Shown here: piece by piece, positions 2,987 to 10,058 of the stretch
Layout of the letters: every line of letters begins with the position of its first letter
Numbering within the stretch: position 1 is the first letter of the stretch
NCBI GenBank assembly: GCA_030651965.1
Contig: JAUSBQ010000387.1
Span: 1 to 34,542 of the forward strand
From: Pseudolabrys sp.
Lineage (GTDB): Bacteria > Pseudomonadota > Alphaproteobacteria > Rhizobiales > Xanthobacteraceae
Direction: 5' to 3'
Length of the DNA stretch: 34,542 nt
Position numbers and translations under genes: made by a program
Notes under the pieces: generated by a model
What the model was told of the DNA's origin: nothing
Seen by the model: the letters and a program-made list of their open reading frames with translations, nothing else
Databases searched by the model: none

Positions 2987-4372
2987 TTATTCCCCGGCTT
3001 TTCGGGAGTATCGCCAAACCGCAGGCGGTGTGTTGCAGAAGTATCGAAGCGCATCGCAGGAATGGTCGTTTGCCCCGGAGTCCAAATCATCCGGCTTGCG
3101 CGGGTCGCGGATGATGAACGGTGCGGTCTGCCAGAAGTGGCTGCAGCGCGCCGAAAGCATGAGCCCCGGTTTGCCGGTCTTGTCGCGCGTGGCGATGAGG
3201 CGGTTGCGAATCGCGGCCCATCCTTGGATGCGGCCCTTGGCCGGCTTTGTCAGGTAGACATTTTCCGTCCTGAAATAATTCAGGAGCGTGTCCTCATTGC
3301 CCGAGAGGCCGACCGCATCGTCGCCGACCCCGTTTGCTGCCATATTGTAGCGGGCGCAAATCTCTCGAATCGATTCCGCGACCTTGCTCGGCGGCCAGCC
3401 GAGTCCGGCGCTGATGTCATCGGGACGATGCGTGGACAATTCGTCAAATATGATGAGCGTCCCTTTCGGGCCGACGCCTTTAATCGAATCCGAGAGATAG
3501 CCGCCGAACAATGTGACGCACGGTGCTGCCGTTCCCCAATCGAGCGCGAGTGACTTGGCGTAGAGTATGTCCGTGGAGAACGGCAACGCGCTCGGCAGCA
3601 TGTGAGTGGCCTCGCTCAAGCAGTCGGCGAAGAACGCGCCGCGTGCGATGTTCCATGAACCCGAGAGCCAAGCCTCGGCCAGCGCCTCGTCGCCGCTGCA
3701 CGACGCAAGAATTTTTGTTTTATAGTCGGCGTGATTCAGATACGGATTGTCCAAGTACGTGCCAGCGCAATGCACCCACGTCTCGCCTTCAACTACAAAG
3801 GGGTGCCACGCAGGCGCGGCCGAAATGTACTTCGATTGGAGCAGTTGATGCTGCGAACCCCCTGGGTTGGCGGTCATTATGGTGGCAAGCGGGATATCTG
3901 CTGGCGACCTCAGGTTCGATTTCAAAAGCTGAACCCACCGCATTTCGCGCAGCAGACCGGCTTCGTCGATGCAGAGCAGCGTGGTTTCGCGGCCCATGTA
4001 TTTGCTGACATCGCGATGCGATTCCAACTGACCAAATTCGACGGTGCCGCCGTCCGCGATGCGAACCATGTGCTCTTGCTTATTGAAGCGGGCCCGCCCT
4101 CCGGGAAATGCTTGGTCCAGAATCGTCACCATCAGTTCTTCGATGGCCTGAAGCCCTTTGTAGTTCTCGCGCAGAATTAGAACCTTCGCCGCCGTCCCGT
4201 ATTTCGTCAGGTGGCGCAAGATGCGCAGCGCCATCGCGTGCGTCTTGCCGGGACCGCGCCCGCCTTCGAGAAGCAGATTCCAGACCTCGGGAATTTTCAG
4301 AACGCGGCTCTGCCATTCTGTTGGCTGGATGCCGGCGTGAACCGGTGCCTTCATGGTGTCGGTCATAGTCAT
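2987..4372 (-). CDS. phage terminase large subunit (TerL-like)
   Basis: Start at MTMTDTMKAPVHAG (4372), overlapping the upstream stop. Walker A GGRGPGKTHA, Walker B-like LLCIDEAG, RNaseH-like nuclease motifs LALDWGTAAP and SCDALRYF. Confidence 0.85.
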   Translation of the reverse strand: MTMTDTMKAPVHAGIQPTEWQSRVLKIPEVWNLLLEGGRGPGKTHAMALRILRHLTKYGTAAKVLILRENYKGLQAIEELMVTILDQAFPGGRARFNKQEHMVRIADGGTVEFGQLESHRDVSKYMGRETTLLCIDEAGLLREMRWVQLLKSNLRSPADIPLATIMTANPGGSQHQLLQSKYISAAPAWHPFVVEGETWVHCAGTYLDNPYLNHADYKTKILASCSGDEALAEAWLSGSWNIARGAFFADCLSEATHMLPSALPFSTDILYAKSLALDWGTAAPCVTLFGGYLSDSIKGVGPKGTLIIFDELSTHRPDDISAGLGWPPSKVAESIREICARYNMAANGVGDDAVGLSGNEDTLLNYFRTENVYLTKPAKGRIQGWAAIRNRLIATRDKTGKPGLMLSARCSHFWQTAPFIIRDPRKPDDLDSGANDHSCDALRYFCNTPPAVWRYSRKAGE

Positions 4373-4905
4373 CGCGTGGTCCCTCCTGTGCCCGAGAGAG
4401 GGGCAAGCGCGACCGGCCGGGTGACCTTGGGGCGCTCGTTGATGACGCGCATGTACTGCTCGGGTGTGTACGAATCCGGCAGGACGATGGTGATGTTCGG
4501 TGCCGTGGTCGGCGGCGCGGCAGTCTCGGTGTACCCATGGCGCGTCTTGAGCAGGAAAAGCGCGGCGACGGCATAGCCTTTGCGCGCCGCCTGCTTCAAA
4601 ATGTCGACAAGCTCCATCTCCTCCAGAGCAGCGCCGTGCTCCCACGCAACGCGGCACCGCTCATCGCGTTGGAAGAGCTTCTGCAACGTGGCCTTGGTAA
4701 GGCCCATCTCGGCGGCGATGAGATTCTGACTCGCGCCATCGCTGGCACGGCGCTTGATGAACTCTAAACCGGTGTCGGTTATGCTGACGGTGCCGAGCTT
4801 ATCGTCGGCGCGCGTGATGTACGGCGGCATAGGCATGGCGACCGATGCGATGAATGATGCCGTCTCGTCGTCGGCCGGCGCGGGAGTTTGTTTCGGCTTC
4901 TTCAT
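4369..4905 (-). CDS. terminase small subunit-like / HTH protein
   Basis: 178 aa with HTH-like region (SQNLIAAEMGLTKATLQKLFQRDERCRVAWEHG), immediately upstream of and overlapping TerL. Confidence 0.65.
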   Translation of the reverse strand: MKKPKQTPAPADDETASFIASVAMPMPPYITRADDKLGTVSITDTGLEFIKRRASDGASQNLIAAEMGLTKATLQKLFQRDERCRVAWEHGAALEEMELVDILKQAARKGYAVAALFLLKTRHGYTETAAPPTTAPNITIVLPDSYTPEQYMRVINERPKVTRPVALAPLSGTGGTTR

Positions 4906-5138: not shown

Positions 5139-5308
5139 GATGTGGTCTCCTTGGGCTTGTGCGCGGTGTCGTCCTTACCTACGGCGTTCCACTCCGCCTC
5201 TTGCATGGCGAGCAATGCGCGCCGCGCGGCGCGGGCCTGCCTTGCGTGGATTTGGCGGCACTCGTGCGCAGGGTCATGTGCGATGCCGGAGCGATAGCGG
5301 TCGGTCAT
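5135..5308 (-). CDS. small hypothetical protein (57 aa)
   Basis: C-terminal part of ORF 5135..5917, start MTDRYRSGIAHDPAHECRQIHARQARAARRALLAMQEAEWNAVG; overlaps neighbours by 4 nt. Confidence 0.5.
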   Translation of the reverse strand: MTDRYRSGIAHDPAHECRQIHARQARAARRALLAMQEAEWNAVGKDDTAHKPKETTS

Positions 5309-5646
5309 GGCTTGGCCCTCCGTTGGGGCGCGCCAGTGCGGCGCGTATCGTCGTATGTTCCGAACTCGCCGCGTGCGGCCTTGGCCCGAAAGTGTGAGTC
5401 GATGGTCGCGCCGGCCTCGATGCGCTGGTGAGCCGTGGTGAAACCCAAGGGCTCGCCCCGGCCAATCACATTGGCATCGCGCGTCATCGGGTTGCGCGCG
5501 CCGCTGTTCACCTTGGCGGCCGGCCAAGGCGCGGCCGGCGGACTCAGCGGTGCCCTGTGCGACGGCGCGGCCGGACGGCCGATGGCGCGCGGCGGTGGAT
5601 TCATCGCGCCAATGAGGGCTGAGAACGGGCGAGTCGGTGCGTTCAT
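5305..5646 (-). CDS. hypothetical protein (113 aa)
   Basis: C-terminal part of ORF 5305..5928 starting MNAPTRPFSALIGAMNPPPR; overlaps the next gene start by 4 nt. Confidence 0.5.
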   Translation of the reverse strand: MNAPTRPFSALIGAMNPPPRAIGRPAAPSHRAPLSPPAAPWPAAKVNSGARNPMTRDANVIGRGEPLGFTTAHQRIEAGATIDSHFRAKAARGEFGTYDDTRRTGAPQRRAKP

Positions 5647-5872
5647 GGCTGGCCTCCCTGTGCGATGGCCCGAGAAGCCGTGCAGGCGGTGCCGATAGGG
5701 GCGAGAAAGGCGGCCGATTTGCACGAACGCCGTGCGTTCCCCCTGCAATTGCTGGAAGTCGGTGCAAGAAGTGGCCGCCGTTGGCGCAGAACTTCGTTTC
5801 GACCCGCTGTCCGTGTGGCAGTCGGCGGCCTTTTTGGCGCGGCCGGGACGCGGTTGGCGGGCGAAAACCCGA

Positions 5873-6020
5873 GAAGCCGGGAGTCCTGAGTCCCGTGGAG
5901 TCCAATGGACTCCGCATCGTGCTCCCACCCCATCCGAAGGGAGGCTGGTTTCGACTCGACGTTGAGACCAGAGGAAGATGCTGAGTCCATTGGACTCGGT
6001 TGGACTCGGGACTCGGCTTC
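5873..6020. repeat. large imperfect inverted repeat with nested palindromes and a cluster of nine GANTC sites
   Basis: Arm 1 (5873-5918) gaagccgggagtcctgagtcccgtggagtccaatggactccgcatc; reverse complement of arm 2 (5977-6020) gaagccgagtcccgagtccaaccgagtccaatggactcagcatc. 38 of 44 aligned positions match, with one 2-nt gap. GANTC at 5881, 5888, 5898, 5908, 5953, 5983, 5993, 6003, 6010. Confidence 0.9.
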
Positions 6021-6054
6021 CTTGCTTTTCGGGTTAAAAATCAATGGTGCCTCC

Positions 6055-7563
6055 TCAAAATGGGATTTCAGGGGCGTCGACCGGAGGCGCGCGCTCCTCG
6101 GGCAACGGCAATCGGATTCCCAAGAGTCCCCGAGGCCGTTGTGAATCGATTGCCGCCGCAATGCGGTGGCGTTTGACAGTCGGCGATGCGGCCAGCACGG
6201 CCTCGCACAATTCGGTCTTGATGTCGGGACGCGCTCCGTTGCTGGCGCACCATTGCTGGTAAGCGACATATAGGGCGGTCTCGGTGATGAACGCTTTCGC
6301 ATCCAGCACGCAGCACTCTTCAACGAATGTTGCGGTCGGTGATGCGGCGCGCTGGAAGCTCTCCTTGGCAGCGTCACTGGATTCAGTCTCAGTGAATTTG
6401 CCATTCGCTTTAAGGCGGTCGTATCCCTCCAATGCCCAATTCAGAATTCCCGGCAGTTCGGTCCTTAGTTTGTCCGTGAGCGCCTTGTCCTCGCGACCAA
6501 CGAAAGTATTCGTCATGCGAAGCACAACTAGGCGAGCGCTGAACGCGGAAGAGTCGTCAGCGAAATTCGGGATTTTGTTTACCAGCAGGAGAAAACGAGT
6601 GAGCAGCTTCCCGACCCAAGAGACTCTATTTTTGCGGTCGACTTGTACGTTGTCTTCGCCGCTGATGGCTTTGAGGTGACCAGTGACGGTTACCTTGTCA
6701 ATCTTGGGGCCTATCGCAGCCTCCGAGATGATGGCCGCAGTCTTGGCAATAAGCGGTTGCCGACCGAATGGCTCCTGCGCGAGCGCCTGCAGCGAAGATG
6801 CTGCGACGTTCAATTCGCCGAGCAGCATGGTGATGACGCGGGCGATTGTGCCTTTGCCGCTGCGTCCCGGCCCGAGAAGGACGAAAATCTTCTGCAACGA
6901 AGTATCGGGAAGCAGCAGGTATCCCATAATCTCCTGCAGCAAAAACACTTCGCCGGCCGTAGTGCTATCGAGATTCGATGGCCAGTATTGTTCGAGCGTG
7001 TTGAGCCAAAGTGGACATGCGGCATCCGGGTCGTAGTCAAAATTCAGTGCGTTCCGCGTAAAGAAATTTGGCGTTGGCTCAGCGCATTTTCGAGTCGGGA
7101 CATGCAGAATGCAGTTCTGCAAGCTGATGCATTCCAATGGCGAAGGATTGCCGGCGTCATTCAGCCAGCATGGCGGAGCCATCTCGTCGCGCGCGGTGTA
7201 ACTCTCGCATTTGAGCGCGTGAAAGAGCGCCGACCACTGCTTGGGCTCCGCGTCATAGGGCCGTTCGACCCACGCGCCTCCGTCTTCGCCTTGCACCCTA
7301 ACCACTGCCCAATTGAAGAACGAGACGATGTCAGACATCACCGCGAGGTCTTCAAGCTCGTGATAGGCACCCTTGCGGTAGTCGAGGAAGTCGCCATTCC
7401 AATGCAGCAGCGTGGGACGCTTGCACTGGCGGAACTTCTCGGCAGTCGTAACCCAGTCCTTCCGCTGGAGAACGACAGGGAGCCGGAAGTCGCGAGGTGG
7501 CGCGGCTAGCTGCTCTATGCTCTCGGGTTCGGGCCGGGTCACCGGGCGCGTGACTTTGTTCAT
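6055..7563 (-). CDS. phage/plasmid primase-helicase, P4/D5 type (DUF5906-like)
   Basis: 502 aa; LLQEIMGYLLLPDTSLQKIFVLLGPGRSGKGTIARVI (Walker A GPGRSGKGT), SEAAIG...LKAISGEDNVQVDRKN, FLLLVNKIPNFADDSSAFSARLVVLRM, typical of P4-type SF3 helicases. Confidence 0.85.
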   Translation of the reverse strand: MNKVTRPVTRPEPESIEQLAAPPRDFRLPVVLQRKDWVTTAEKFRQCKRPTLLHWNGDFLDYRKGAYHELEDLAVMSDIVSFFNWAVVRVQGEDGGAWVERPYDAEPKQWSALFHALKCESYTARDEMAPPCWLNDAGNPSPLECISLQNCILHVPTRKCAEPTPNFFTRNALNFDYDPDAACPLWLNTLEQYWPSNLDSTTAGEVFLLQEIMGYLLLPDTSLQKIFVLLGPGRSGKGTIARVITMLLGELNVAASSLQALAQEPFGRQPLIAKTAAIISEAAIGPKIDKVTVTGHLKAISGEDNVQVDRKNRVSWVGKLLTRFLLLVNKIPNFADDSSAFSARLVVLRMTNTFVGREDKALTDKLRTELPGILNWALEGYDRLKANGKFTETESSDAAKESFQRAASPTATFVEECCVLDAKAFITETALYVAYQQWCASNGARPDIKTELCEAVLAASPTVKRHRIAAAIDSQRPRGLLGIRLPLPEERAPPVDAPEIPF

Positions 7564-8039
7564 GGCCGCTCCTGCAATTTGCCGGTGGCGTCGACCACGC
7601 CGCTACGCATTCCGTAGGACTCACCCGCGAGAGGGCTTGGCATCGCAACGCTGAATCCGGTCGTTTCACCGAAGAAGCAGCCAAGCCAAGCGATGTCATC
7701 GGCGTCGTCTGCGGTATCAAACGTTCCCGACCCGACAACTCTGTTGTCGGCGTCGATAAGTGTATAGGTGTACGGCGGAGCAATTCCGGCGGCGCGGTTG
7801 GCCTCAAGAATTTTCGCTGTCTTGTCGCGCACCATCCAGTAGTAGTCGCGGCGTCGTTCGGCGACCGGCATTCCGTTTGGAATGAGAAAGACGTTTTCCG
7901 TGTCATCGCGCTCGTACCAAGTGAGCATGCGAAGTTTCCACAGCTTGCCAGCGCCGAAGCCCGGCGGCGTTGCGACCGTGGGTGCGCTCAAGATTGCACC
8001 GACTTCACAAAGGCGTTTACGCCGCCATTGCGAATCCAT
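7560..8039 (-). CDS. hypothetical protein (159 aa)
   Basis: MDSQWRRKRLCEVGAILSAPTVATPPGFGAG...; 4-nt overlap with the primase gene. Confidence 0.55.
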   Translation of the reverse strand: MDSQWRRKRLCEVGAILSAPTVATPPGFGAGKLWKLRMLTWYERDDTENVFLIPNGMPVAERRRDYYWMVRDKTAKILEANRAAGIAPPYTYTLIDADNRVVGSGTFDTADDADDIAWLGCFFGETTGFSVAMPSPLAGESYGMRSGVVDATGKLQERP

Positions 8040-8592: not shown

Positions 8593-8883
8593 ATGGGTAG
8601 GGTCCAATCCGCCATATTGCGCTGCCTCCGCGACGGCGTGGCGCTGACGACCCGAGAATTGACGGTCGGCGCATTCAATACTTGGACTCCGTCAGGCGCG
8701 TCCGCTGTGCGCCGCGCGTTGGCCACTCTCAAGGCCGACAAGCTGGCATCCTGCACGGCACGGCGCTGGCGACTTCACAAGGCGCTTGGTCAAACGAAGC
8801 GGCGCAAACCGAAAAAATCGAAGCAGTGGACAGCGAGGCAGGGCCGCGACGAATTGGCCGGGCAGGAGGAATTGCCGCTCTAA
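8593..8883 (+). CDS. small basic protein, possibly winged-helix
   Basis: ORF 8578..8883 (TTG or ATG 8593): MGRVQSAILRCLRDGVALTTRELTVGAFNTWTPSGASAVRRALATLKADKL...; only + strand ORF in the element core. Confidence 0.5.
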   Translation: MGRVQSAILRCLRDGVALTTRELTVGAFNTWTPSGASAVRRALATLKADKLASCTARRWRLHKALGQTKRRKPKKSKQWTARQGRDELAGQEELPL

Positions 8884-10058
8884 CCCTTCATTAGTTGCAT
8901 CATGCGCGCACTGATTTTTCGCTGCGCAGCCCGCAACGACGAACCGACCAGCAGCGCCCGCGTGATGTAGCCTTGGCTGACACCGACCAGCGAATGCCCG
9001 AGGAGCAAGCGGATATCCAGTTCATTGACGCCGATTTGCGCGGCGACCGTGCGATAGGTGTGCCGCCCGGCGTTGCCGCTGTGCGTGAGTTTGCGGTGCC
9101 TCTCGTGCGTTTCAATGAGGTGGCCGTCCTTGCCGGGACCGGGAAAGACCCATTCGTTGCTGCGTGCCTCGAACGCGATGCGGCCGGCGGCGCGCGCGAG
9201 CTTTAGCTGTCGAACGATTGGCAGGCTCATCGGAATCTCAATATCAATGCCGGTCTTGGTCTTGCCAATTACGACCTTGCGTTTGGCGCAATCGACACCG
9301 TCCCAACGCAAGCGGGCAAGCTCTCCGGGCCGCATGCCAGTCAGCACGCAAAGCCGATGGTAGGCCGCACGCAAAGCGTCTTTCTCTTCGATGGCATCGA
9401 CCTGCGCTGCCCATGCTGGAAACTCGGCGAATGGAATTGCGCGGTTCGCGCGCTCTTGCTTGTTCCACTGAACGCCGGTCGCCGGGTGCATAGCTGGCAG
9501 TGAACGGTTGAATTTCTGCGCATGGCGATAGGTTGCCCGAAGGAGGCGAGCCGCATTGTTCGCCTGTACAGGGCCGCGCTTTTTGGAAAGCGCGAGGTGC
9601 CAGTCGCGTACCTTCTCGGGTGAATTCGAAATATCCGCGAGCGACTGATGTTCCCATAGCCCGAGGCAACGCTTGAAGATGCCTTCGCAGTCCGCCAGCC
9701 AACGGGTCCGTAGCGTGGCTTTGTACGCTACGAACGCTTCCGCCAACGTGACGCCGCGCGGCGGGGTGATGACGAACTTGCCGACCGCCCGCTCACCGAT
9801 GATTTCGAGCACCCGAGCGCGCGCTTGGTCGGCCTTAACGTGCGGCCACTCACCGAGCTTGCGGCTGATTGTCTTGCGGTGGCCGTTTTCACGCCCCTCC
9901 GACTGGTACCGAAAGGTCTTCCGCTTCATGCCGACGCGAAGCATGAGACCGGGGGTTTTGGAATCCCGGTGGACAATGCCGGCGCTGGAAGTGGCGAACG
10001 GAATCCGCTTGATGGCCGTGTCGGTGAAAATCATAGGTCCCTCCATTTCGCCGAGCAA
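8880..10058 (-). CDS. tyrosine recombinase / phage integrase
   Basis: 392 aa with catalytic signatures LTGMRPGELARLRWDGVD (R), GRHTYRTVAAQIGV (HxxR-type), LLLGHSLVGVSQGYI (H...Y); start adjacent to a tRNA 3' fragment. Confidence 0.9.
   Translation of the reverse strand: MLGEMEGPMIFTDTAIKRIPFATSSAGIVHRDSKTPGLMLRVGMKRKTFRYQSEGRENGHRKTISRKLGEWPHVKADQARARVLEIIGERAVGKFVITPPRGVTLAEAFVAYKATLRTRWLADCEGIFKRCLGLWEHQSLADISNSPEKVRDWHLALSKKRGPVQANNAARLLRATYRHAQKFNRSLPAMHPATGVQWNKQERANRAIPFAEFPAWAAQVDAIEEKDALRAAYHRLCVLTGMRPGELARLRWDGVDCAKRKVVIGKTKTGIDIEIPMSLPIVRQLKLARAAGRIAFEARSNEWVFPGPGKDGHLIETHERHRKLTHSGNAGRHTYRTVAAQIGVNELDIRLLLGHSLVGVSQGYITRALLVGSSLRAAQRKISARMMQLMKG

Follow-up and report, generated by a model that had tools for sequence, protein, structure and literature searches.

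A candidate iteron-type replication origin directly 3' of a P4-family helicase gene in an integrated phage-satellite-like element of Pseudolabrys sp.

The window analyzed here is a 34.5-kb stretch on one contig of Pseudolabrys sp., and all coordinates are given as window positions. It covers one end of an integrated element, the contig stopping before the other end is reached. The genes of the element lie on the minus strand and, read leftwards, encode a tyrosine integrase (8880–10058; PF00589, PF13356), a 159-aa protein of no recognized family whose ORF (7560–8039) overlaps the start of the helicase gene, a P4-family replication helicase of 502 aa (6055–7563) and, beyond a noncoding gap, a 113-aa protein, also of no recognized family (5305–5646), a terminase-small-subunit-like DNA-binding protein (4369–4905), and the terminase large subunit (2987–4657; Terminase_3, phrog_2). 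The small-subunit match is weak (phrog_664, E-value 4e-5), its gene adjoining terL, and the ORF listed for the large subunit probably begins upstream of the true start, at about position 4600. A possible piece of defence cargo lies at the element's far end, where a minus-strand gene (570–1631) encodes a product whose domain resembles the N-terminus of type I restriction HsdR (PF13588, phrog_17239). The gap on the terminase side of the helicase gene, estimated at about 400 bp in the initial annotation, measures 408 bp (5647–6054) and contains the proposed origin.

The helicase carries D5_N, SF3/DUF5906 and a C-terminal Pox_D5 region (Pfam, PHROGs), and its score against the NCBIfam model TIGR01613 (161 bits for a cut-off of 108.7) places it in the P4 family. 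Compared with solved structures, the family profile matched PDB 7OLA, the SaPI5 primase-helicase, over nearly its full length (E-value 4e-37), and 7OLA was also the best structural match of the predicted structure, an AlphaFold model of moderate confidence (mean pLDDT 70). The C-terminus of the family profile matches an RFX-type winged helix (E-value 3e-6); according to a paper on a related protein, the winged helix is a fold common to RFX1 and the origin-binding domain of P4 alpha (PMC10516667). The gene had been described as encoding a P4-type primase-helicase. Membership of the P4 helicase family holds, but no primase catalytic domain was recognized in the 502-aa protein by Pfam, PHROGs, or NCBIfam, which returned only the D5_N, helicase, and C-terminal regions, and the protein is therefore better named a helicase/initiator than a primase.

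Within the gap, 23 bp from the stop codon of the helicase gene, begins an interrupted inverted repeat of 170 bp (5862–6031, hereafter the block), whose arms of 63 and 61 nt (5862–5924 and 5971–6031, with gaps) flank a spacer of 46 nt (5925–5970). Without gaps, the arms (5881–5924 and 5971–6014) are 82% complementary; the inverted repeat noticed initially, with arms of about 44–46 bp, is thus real and larger than stated. Folded as DNA, the block reaches −54.8 kcal/mol, against a mean of −28.5 for shuffled sequences (z = −8.9), and it also folds strongly as RNA on both strands. The GC content of the spacer, 61%, equals that of the locus, so the DNA between the arms is not AT-rich.

The arms are themselves made of short repeats. 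Nine GANTC sites, all GAGTC or GACTC, start at 5881, 5888, 5898, 5908, 5953, 5983, 5993, 6003, and 6010, exactly as first reported for 5881–6014, with spacings of 7, 10, 10, 45, 30, 10, 10, and 7 (nine sites in 134 bp for about 0.6 expected in that span); elsewhere in the window, the count over 134 bp from any site never exceeds four. At eight of the nine, the exception being the site at 5953 in the spacer, the hexamer GAGTCC or its complement is present, so that what recurs is a longer and more specific unit than GANTC. Each arm has four such hexamers and the two sets face each other: the left set (5881–5912) has GAGTCC at 5881, 5888, and 5898 and inverted GGACTC at 5907, and its mirror on the right (5983–6014) has GAGTCC at 5983 and GGACTC at 5992, 6002, and 6009. 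The 15-nt palindrome previously assigned to each arm was found as GAGTCCAATGGACTC (5898–5912) and its complement, GAGTCCATTGGACTC lying at 5983–5997, each being only a near-palindrome of 7 + 1 + 7. The mirror symmetry of the GANTC spacings, to which the initial annotation had drawn attention, is correct as described; it follows from the inverted repeat, however, and hence is not independent evidence. The whole window contains 22 GAGTCC hexamers, and the 8 of the block form their only cluster. No second iteron cluster was found in the window, but because the contig end cuts the element, a second site comparable to P4 ori is possible.

Searches with the block itself gave no relative: its DNA matched nothing in phage or plasmid records, nor in 60 related genomes, and Rfam returned nothing at the gathering score, a match to MIR6450 below threshold being a hairpin artefact. 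The block occurs only once in its own genome, which led us to reject a MITE or REP family, and its ends, read from the sequence, lack the core boxes of an integron attC site. A pattern search of IMG/VR for the GAGTCC layout returned one contig (L090), in which the pattern falls in an irrelevant collagen-like repeat gene. With the terminase as query, no relative was found among viral contigs or in the genus.

Because the DNA of the block had no match elsewhere, relatives were sought via the helicase, in searches of the genome, genus, order, and class and of viral contigs (loci are numbered with the prefix L). A folding-energy scan of the first loci often placed the strongest hairpin of the 18-kb locus directly after the helicase stop codon. 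We then used a fixed measure, namely the best inverted repeat and the number of repeated 7-mers in 320 bp around that stop codon, with 554 equivalent intervals that follow other ORFs in these loci as control and their 95th percentile as cut-off. In the first batch, from which the idea came, 10 of 17 relatives exceeded the cut-off (Mann–Whitney p = 8e-5). In an independent class-level batch collected later, an inverted repeat above the cut-off was present in 17 of 23 (Mann–Whitney p = 5e-11) and repeated 7-mers also differed from control intervals (p = 8e-5), figures to be read with the proviso that relatives are not fully independent phylogenetically and that some of the inverted repeats counted, for example in L042, may be terminators. 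About a quarter of this second batch has no repeat 3' of the helicase gene. Among three further viral contigs, only L088 shows the repeat, in a perfect 35-bp form; the repeat is also missing 3' of the related gene in all five lytic phages examined, indicating that it belongs to a subset of elements and does not accompany every P4-family helicase gene.

Where present, the repeat lies within about 170 bp of the helicase stop codon, and most of the 27 inverted-repeat-positive relatives show two or three tandem units of 8–10 bp per arm, inverted on the opposite side. The motif varies among elements (AAAGTGACGAAAGTGACG in L076, TGGGACAGGTGGGACAGG in L043, TGGAGGGTGTGGAGGGT in L064, GTCCGCGTGTCCGC in L038, and ACTGTCGC in L088, the last with a palindromic pair like that of the window), so a large stem-loop directly 3' of the helicase is conserved in structure and not in sequence, as in pRN1. 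Similarity between iterons rises weakly with similarity between helicase C-termini (Mantel rho 0.16, p = 0.008); the coefficient is small, but its direction is that predicted for a helicase that recognizes the repeats. The median GC content of the 27 spacers is 12 points below that of their loci, whereas the window spacer is not lower. In the P4 record NC_001609, the annotated crr comes directly 3' of alpha, beyond a terminator, and its type 1 repeats of 8 bp form sets that face each other; applied to this record, the same measure gave p = 0.014 for repeats and a marginal p = 0.09 for the inverted-repeat score.

Other observations were made in these loci. Seven of them (L036, L043, L021, L080, L085, L038, and L039) have the order helicase, repeat, then terminase, portal or head-protease genes, and resemble capsid-forming PICIs. 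L040 and L041 are two places in one genome with near-identical origin regions. Spacers or inner arms consist of alternating CGCGCG/GCGCGC in L078, L080, L081, L086, and L088, which could favour Z-DNA or easy melting in place of AT-richness. Outside Proteobacteria, a near-perfect 27-bp hairpin directly follows the same helicase type in a Flavobacteriaceae MAG (L004, 2580–2700), and a strong iteron-like inverted repeat occurs in a Thaumarchaeota MAG (L003, 7080–7220). The latter repeat lies within the helicase coding sequence, at its 3' end, and its fold was left out of the support.

The initial annotation had proposed a methylation-sensitive switch linking the element to the cell cycle of the host. 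On such a reading the cluster would have been selected as sites for CcrM, and hemimethylation of GANTC would make excision or replication depend on that cycle. The density of sites is far above chance, and the host encodes GcrA together with an N6 methylase of 379 aa that has a RAMA domain and a DPPY motif, a homolog of CcrM, so GANTC methylation in the window element is possible. CcrM accepts any base at the N of GANTC, whereas the unit repeated here is GAGTCC and neither GAATC nor GATTC occurs in the arms. Moreover, the comparison of GANTC sites with structure across relatives, which the same annotation had suggested as a check, shows the structure kept and the sites lost, with 8 GANTC in the 27 repeats for 10.9 expected, an outcome that it had itself listed as refuting. 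These relatives nearly all belong to the same bacterial class. Methylation is very unlikely to be the reason why the structure exists, and it does not appear to be a general property of such repeats. GANTC is probably present in the block because the iteron of the window element happens to contain GAGTC; an incidental local effect of methylation may occur in this element.

A pac or cos site recognized by the terminase encoded 1–3 kb downstream was also suggested, and terminase genes do lie beyond the repeat, both in the window and in a number of relatives (L036, L043, L021, L080, and L085). However, the same architecture stands beside the helicase gene in two P4-family-helicase elements (L040 and L020) in which the genes right after the proposed origin are not terminase genes but the type I restriction–modification genes HsdM/HsdS, and the repeat tracks the helicase stop codon, lying about 950 bp from the terS-like gene in the window, so that a role in packaging is highly improbable. 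Equally adjacent to the helicase gene would be a transcription terminator or a structured RNA ending its transcript, with which the strong RNA fold on either strand is consistent and which the repeat of L042, similar to a plain terminator, brings to mind. Yet no terminator pattern was found in the block, Rfam gave no match, a terminator has no need of the short internal repeats that make up the arms, and a separate terminator precedes the repeat in both L016 and P4; in pRN1, moreover, the terminator proved dispensable and the stem-loop did not (PMC4234260). We regard this explanation as extremely doubtful.

We propose instead that the block serves an integrated phage-satellite-like element as its replication origin, or as an essential replication site similar to crr, a reading of the sequence to which we assign a probability of about 0.82. 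The origin would most likely be of the iteron type, by analogy with the kind already known from P4 and the SaPI/PICI islands. This option, one of those raised initially, gains support from the presence of the same type of inverted repeat, with element-specific tandem repeats, 3' of the helicase in most relatives, and because the cis-acting sites of P4, PICIs (PMC6092414), and pRN1 (PMC4234260) lie at the same place. The anatomy of the block, its position, its family-wide recurrence with changing iterons and the relation of the helicase to SaPI5 and P4 initiators are all shown by the analysis; from them we infer protein binding, melting, and replication at the block. The C-terminal winged-helix domain of the helicase would bind the GAGTCC iterons, spaced by about one helical turn, and as the two sets face each other across the 46-bp spacer, two helicase rings would load, one per half-site, and melt the spacer, bidirectional replication starting after excision of the element. 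Points against an origin are the composition of the spacer, the relatives and lytic phages devoid of the repeat, and the marginal inverted-repeat score of P4 crr.

A bolder form of the origin reading, which we consider unlikely, holds that the window element has an epigenetically gated origin of the P4/PICI type. Its initiator iterons would coincide with CcrM sites, having arisen by drift of the iteron onto GANTC, and host cell-cycle methylation would gate binding of the initiator. In its broader version, stem-loop and iteron origins would be one architecture, a hairpin with iteron arms common to SF3/winged-helix initiators, that would unite the origins of pRN1 and of PICIs and P4.

As a replication origin, what appeared to be an epigenetic cluster becomes testable, and a simple rule emerges for locating the origins of integrated elements purely from sequence, namely to search the first 170 bp or so past a P4-family helicase gene for sets of short repeats that face each other. 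The rule held in about three-quarters of an independent set of elements of the same bacterial class. The varied iteron motifs, paired with their helicases, also provide material on how a winged-helix domain selects its DNA.

Several known systems share parts of this layout. Cch2, the helicase of SCCmec, has its binding site just past the end of its own gene, a position like that of the window repeats; three short direct repeats carry this binding, for which the inverted repeats are dispensable (PMC7581432). The archaeal plasmid pRN1 cannot replicate without a 100-nt stem-loop situated 54 bp past its SF3 replication gene (PMC4234260), and the likeness extends to a stem-loop of about 100–170 nt less than 60 bp after the replication gene and to conservation of structure over sequence (PMC4234260). 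The pRN1 stem-loop was described without iterons, whereas the window arms are made of them, and the pRN1 replication protein has an archaeo-eukaryotic primase domain, of which none was recognized in the window helicase. P4 crr shares with the window block short direct and inverted repeats around a spacer, and a palindromic pair, directly 3' of a P4-family helicase gene, the motif being TGTTCACC in P4 and GAGTCC in the window; P4 crr differs in being a 120-bp duplication whose spacer is AT-rich, and a second site, ori, lies elsewhere in P4. In PICIs, the origin is immediately 3' of rep and always has an AT-rich region placed between two sets of iterons (PMC6092414). The window spacer does not resemble this region, and the window element is only putatively a PICI. 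SaPIs and other PICIs nevertheless share with it both a site immediately 3' of an SF3/D5-type initiator gene and the two iteron sets, and the SaPI5 primase-helicase is the closest solved structure to the window helicase.
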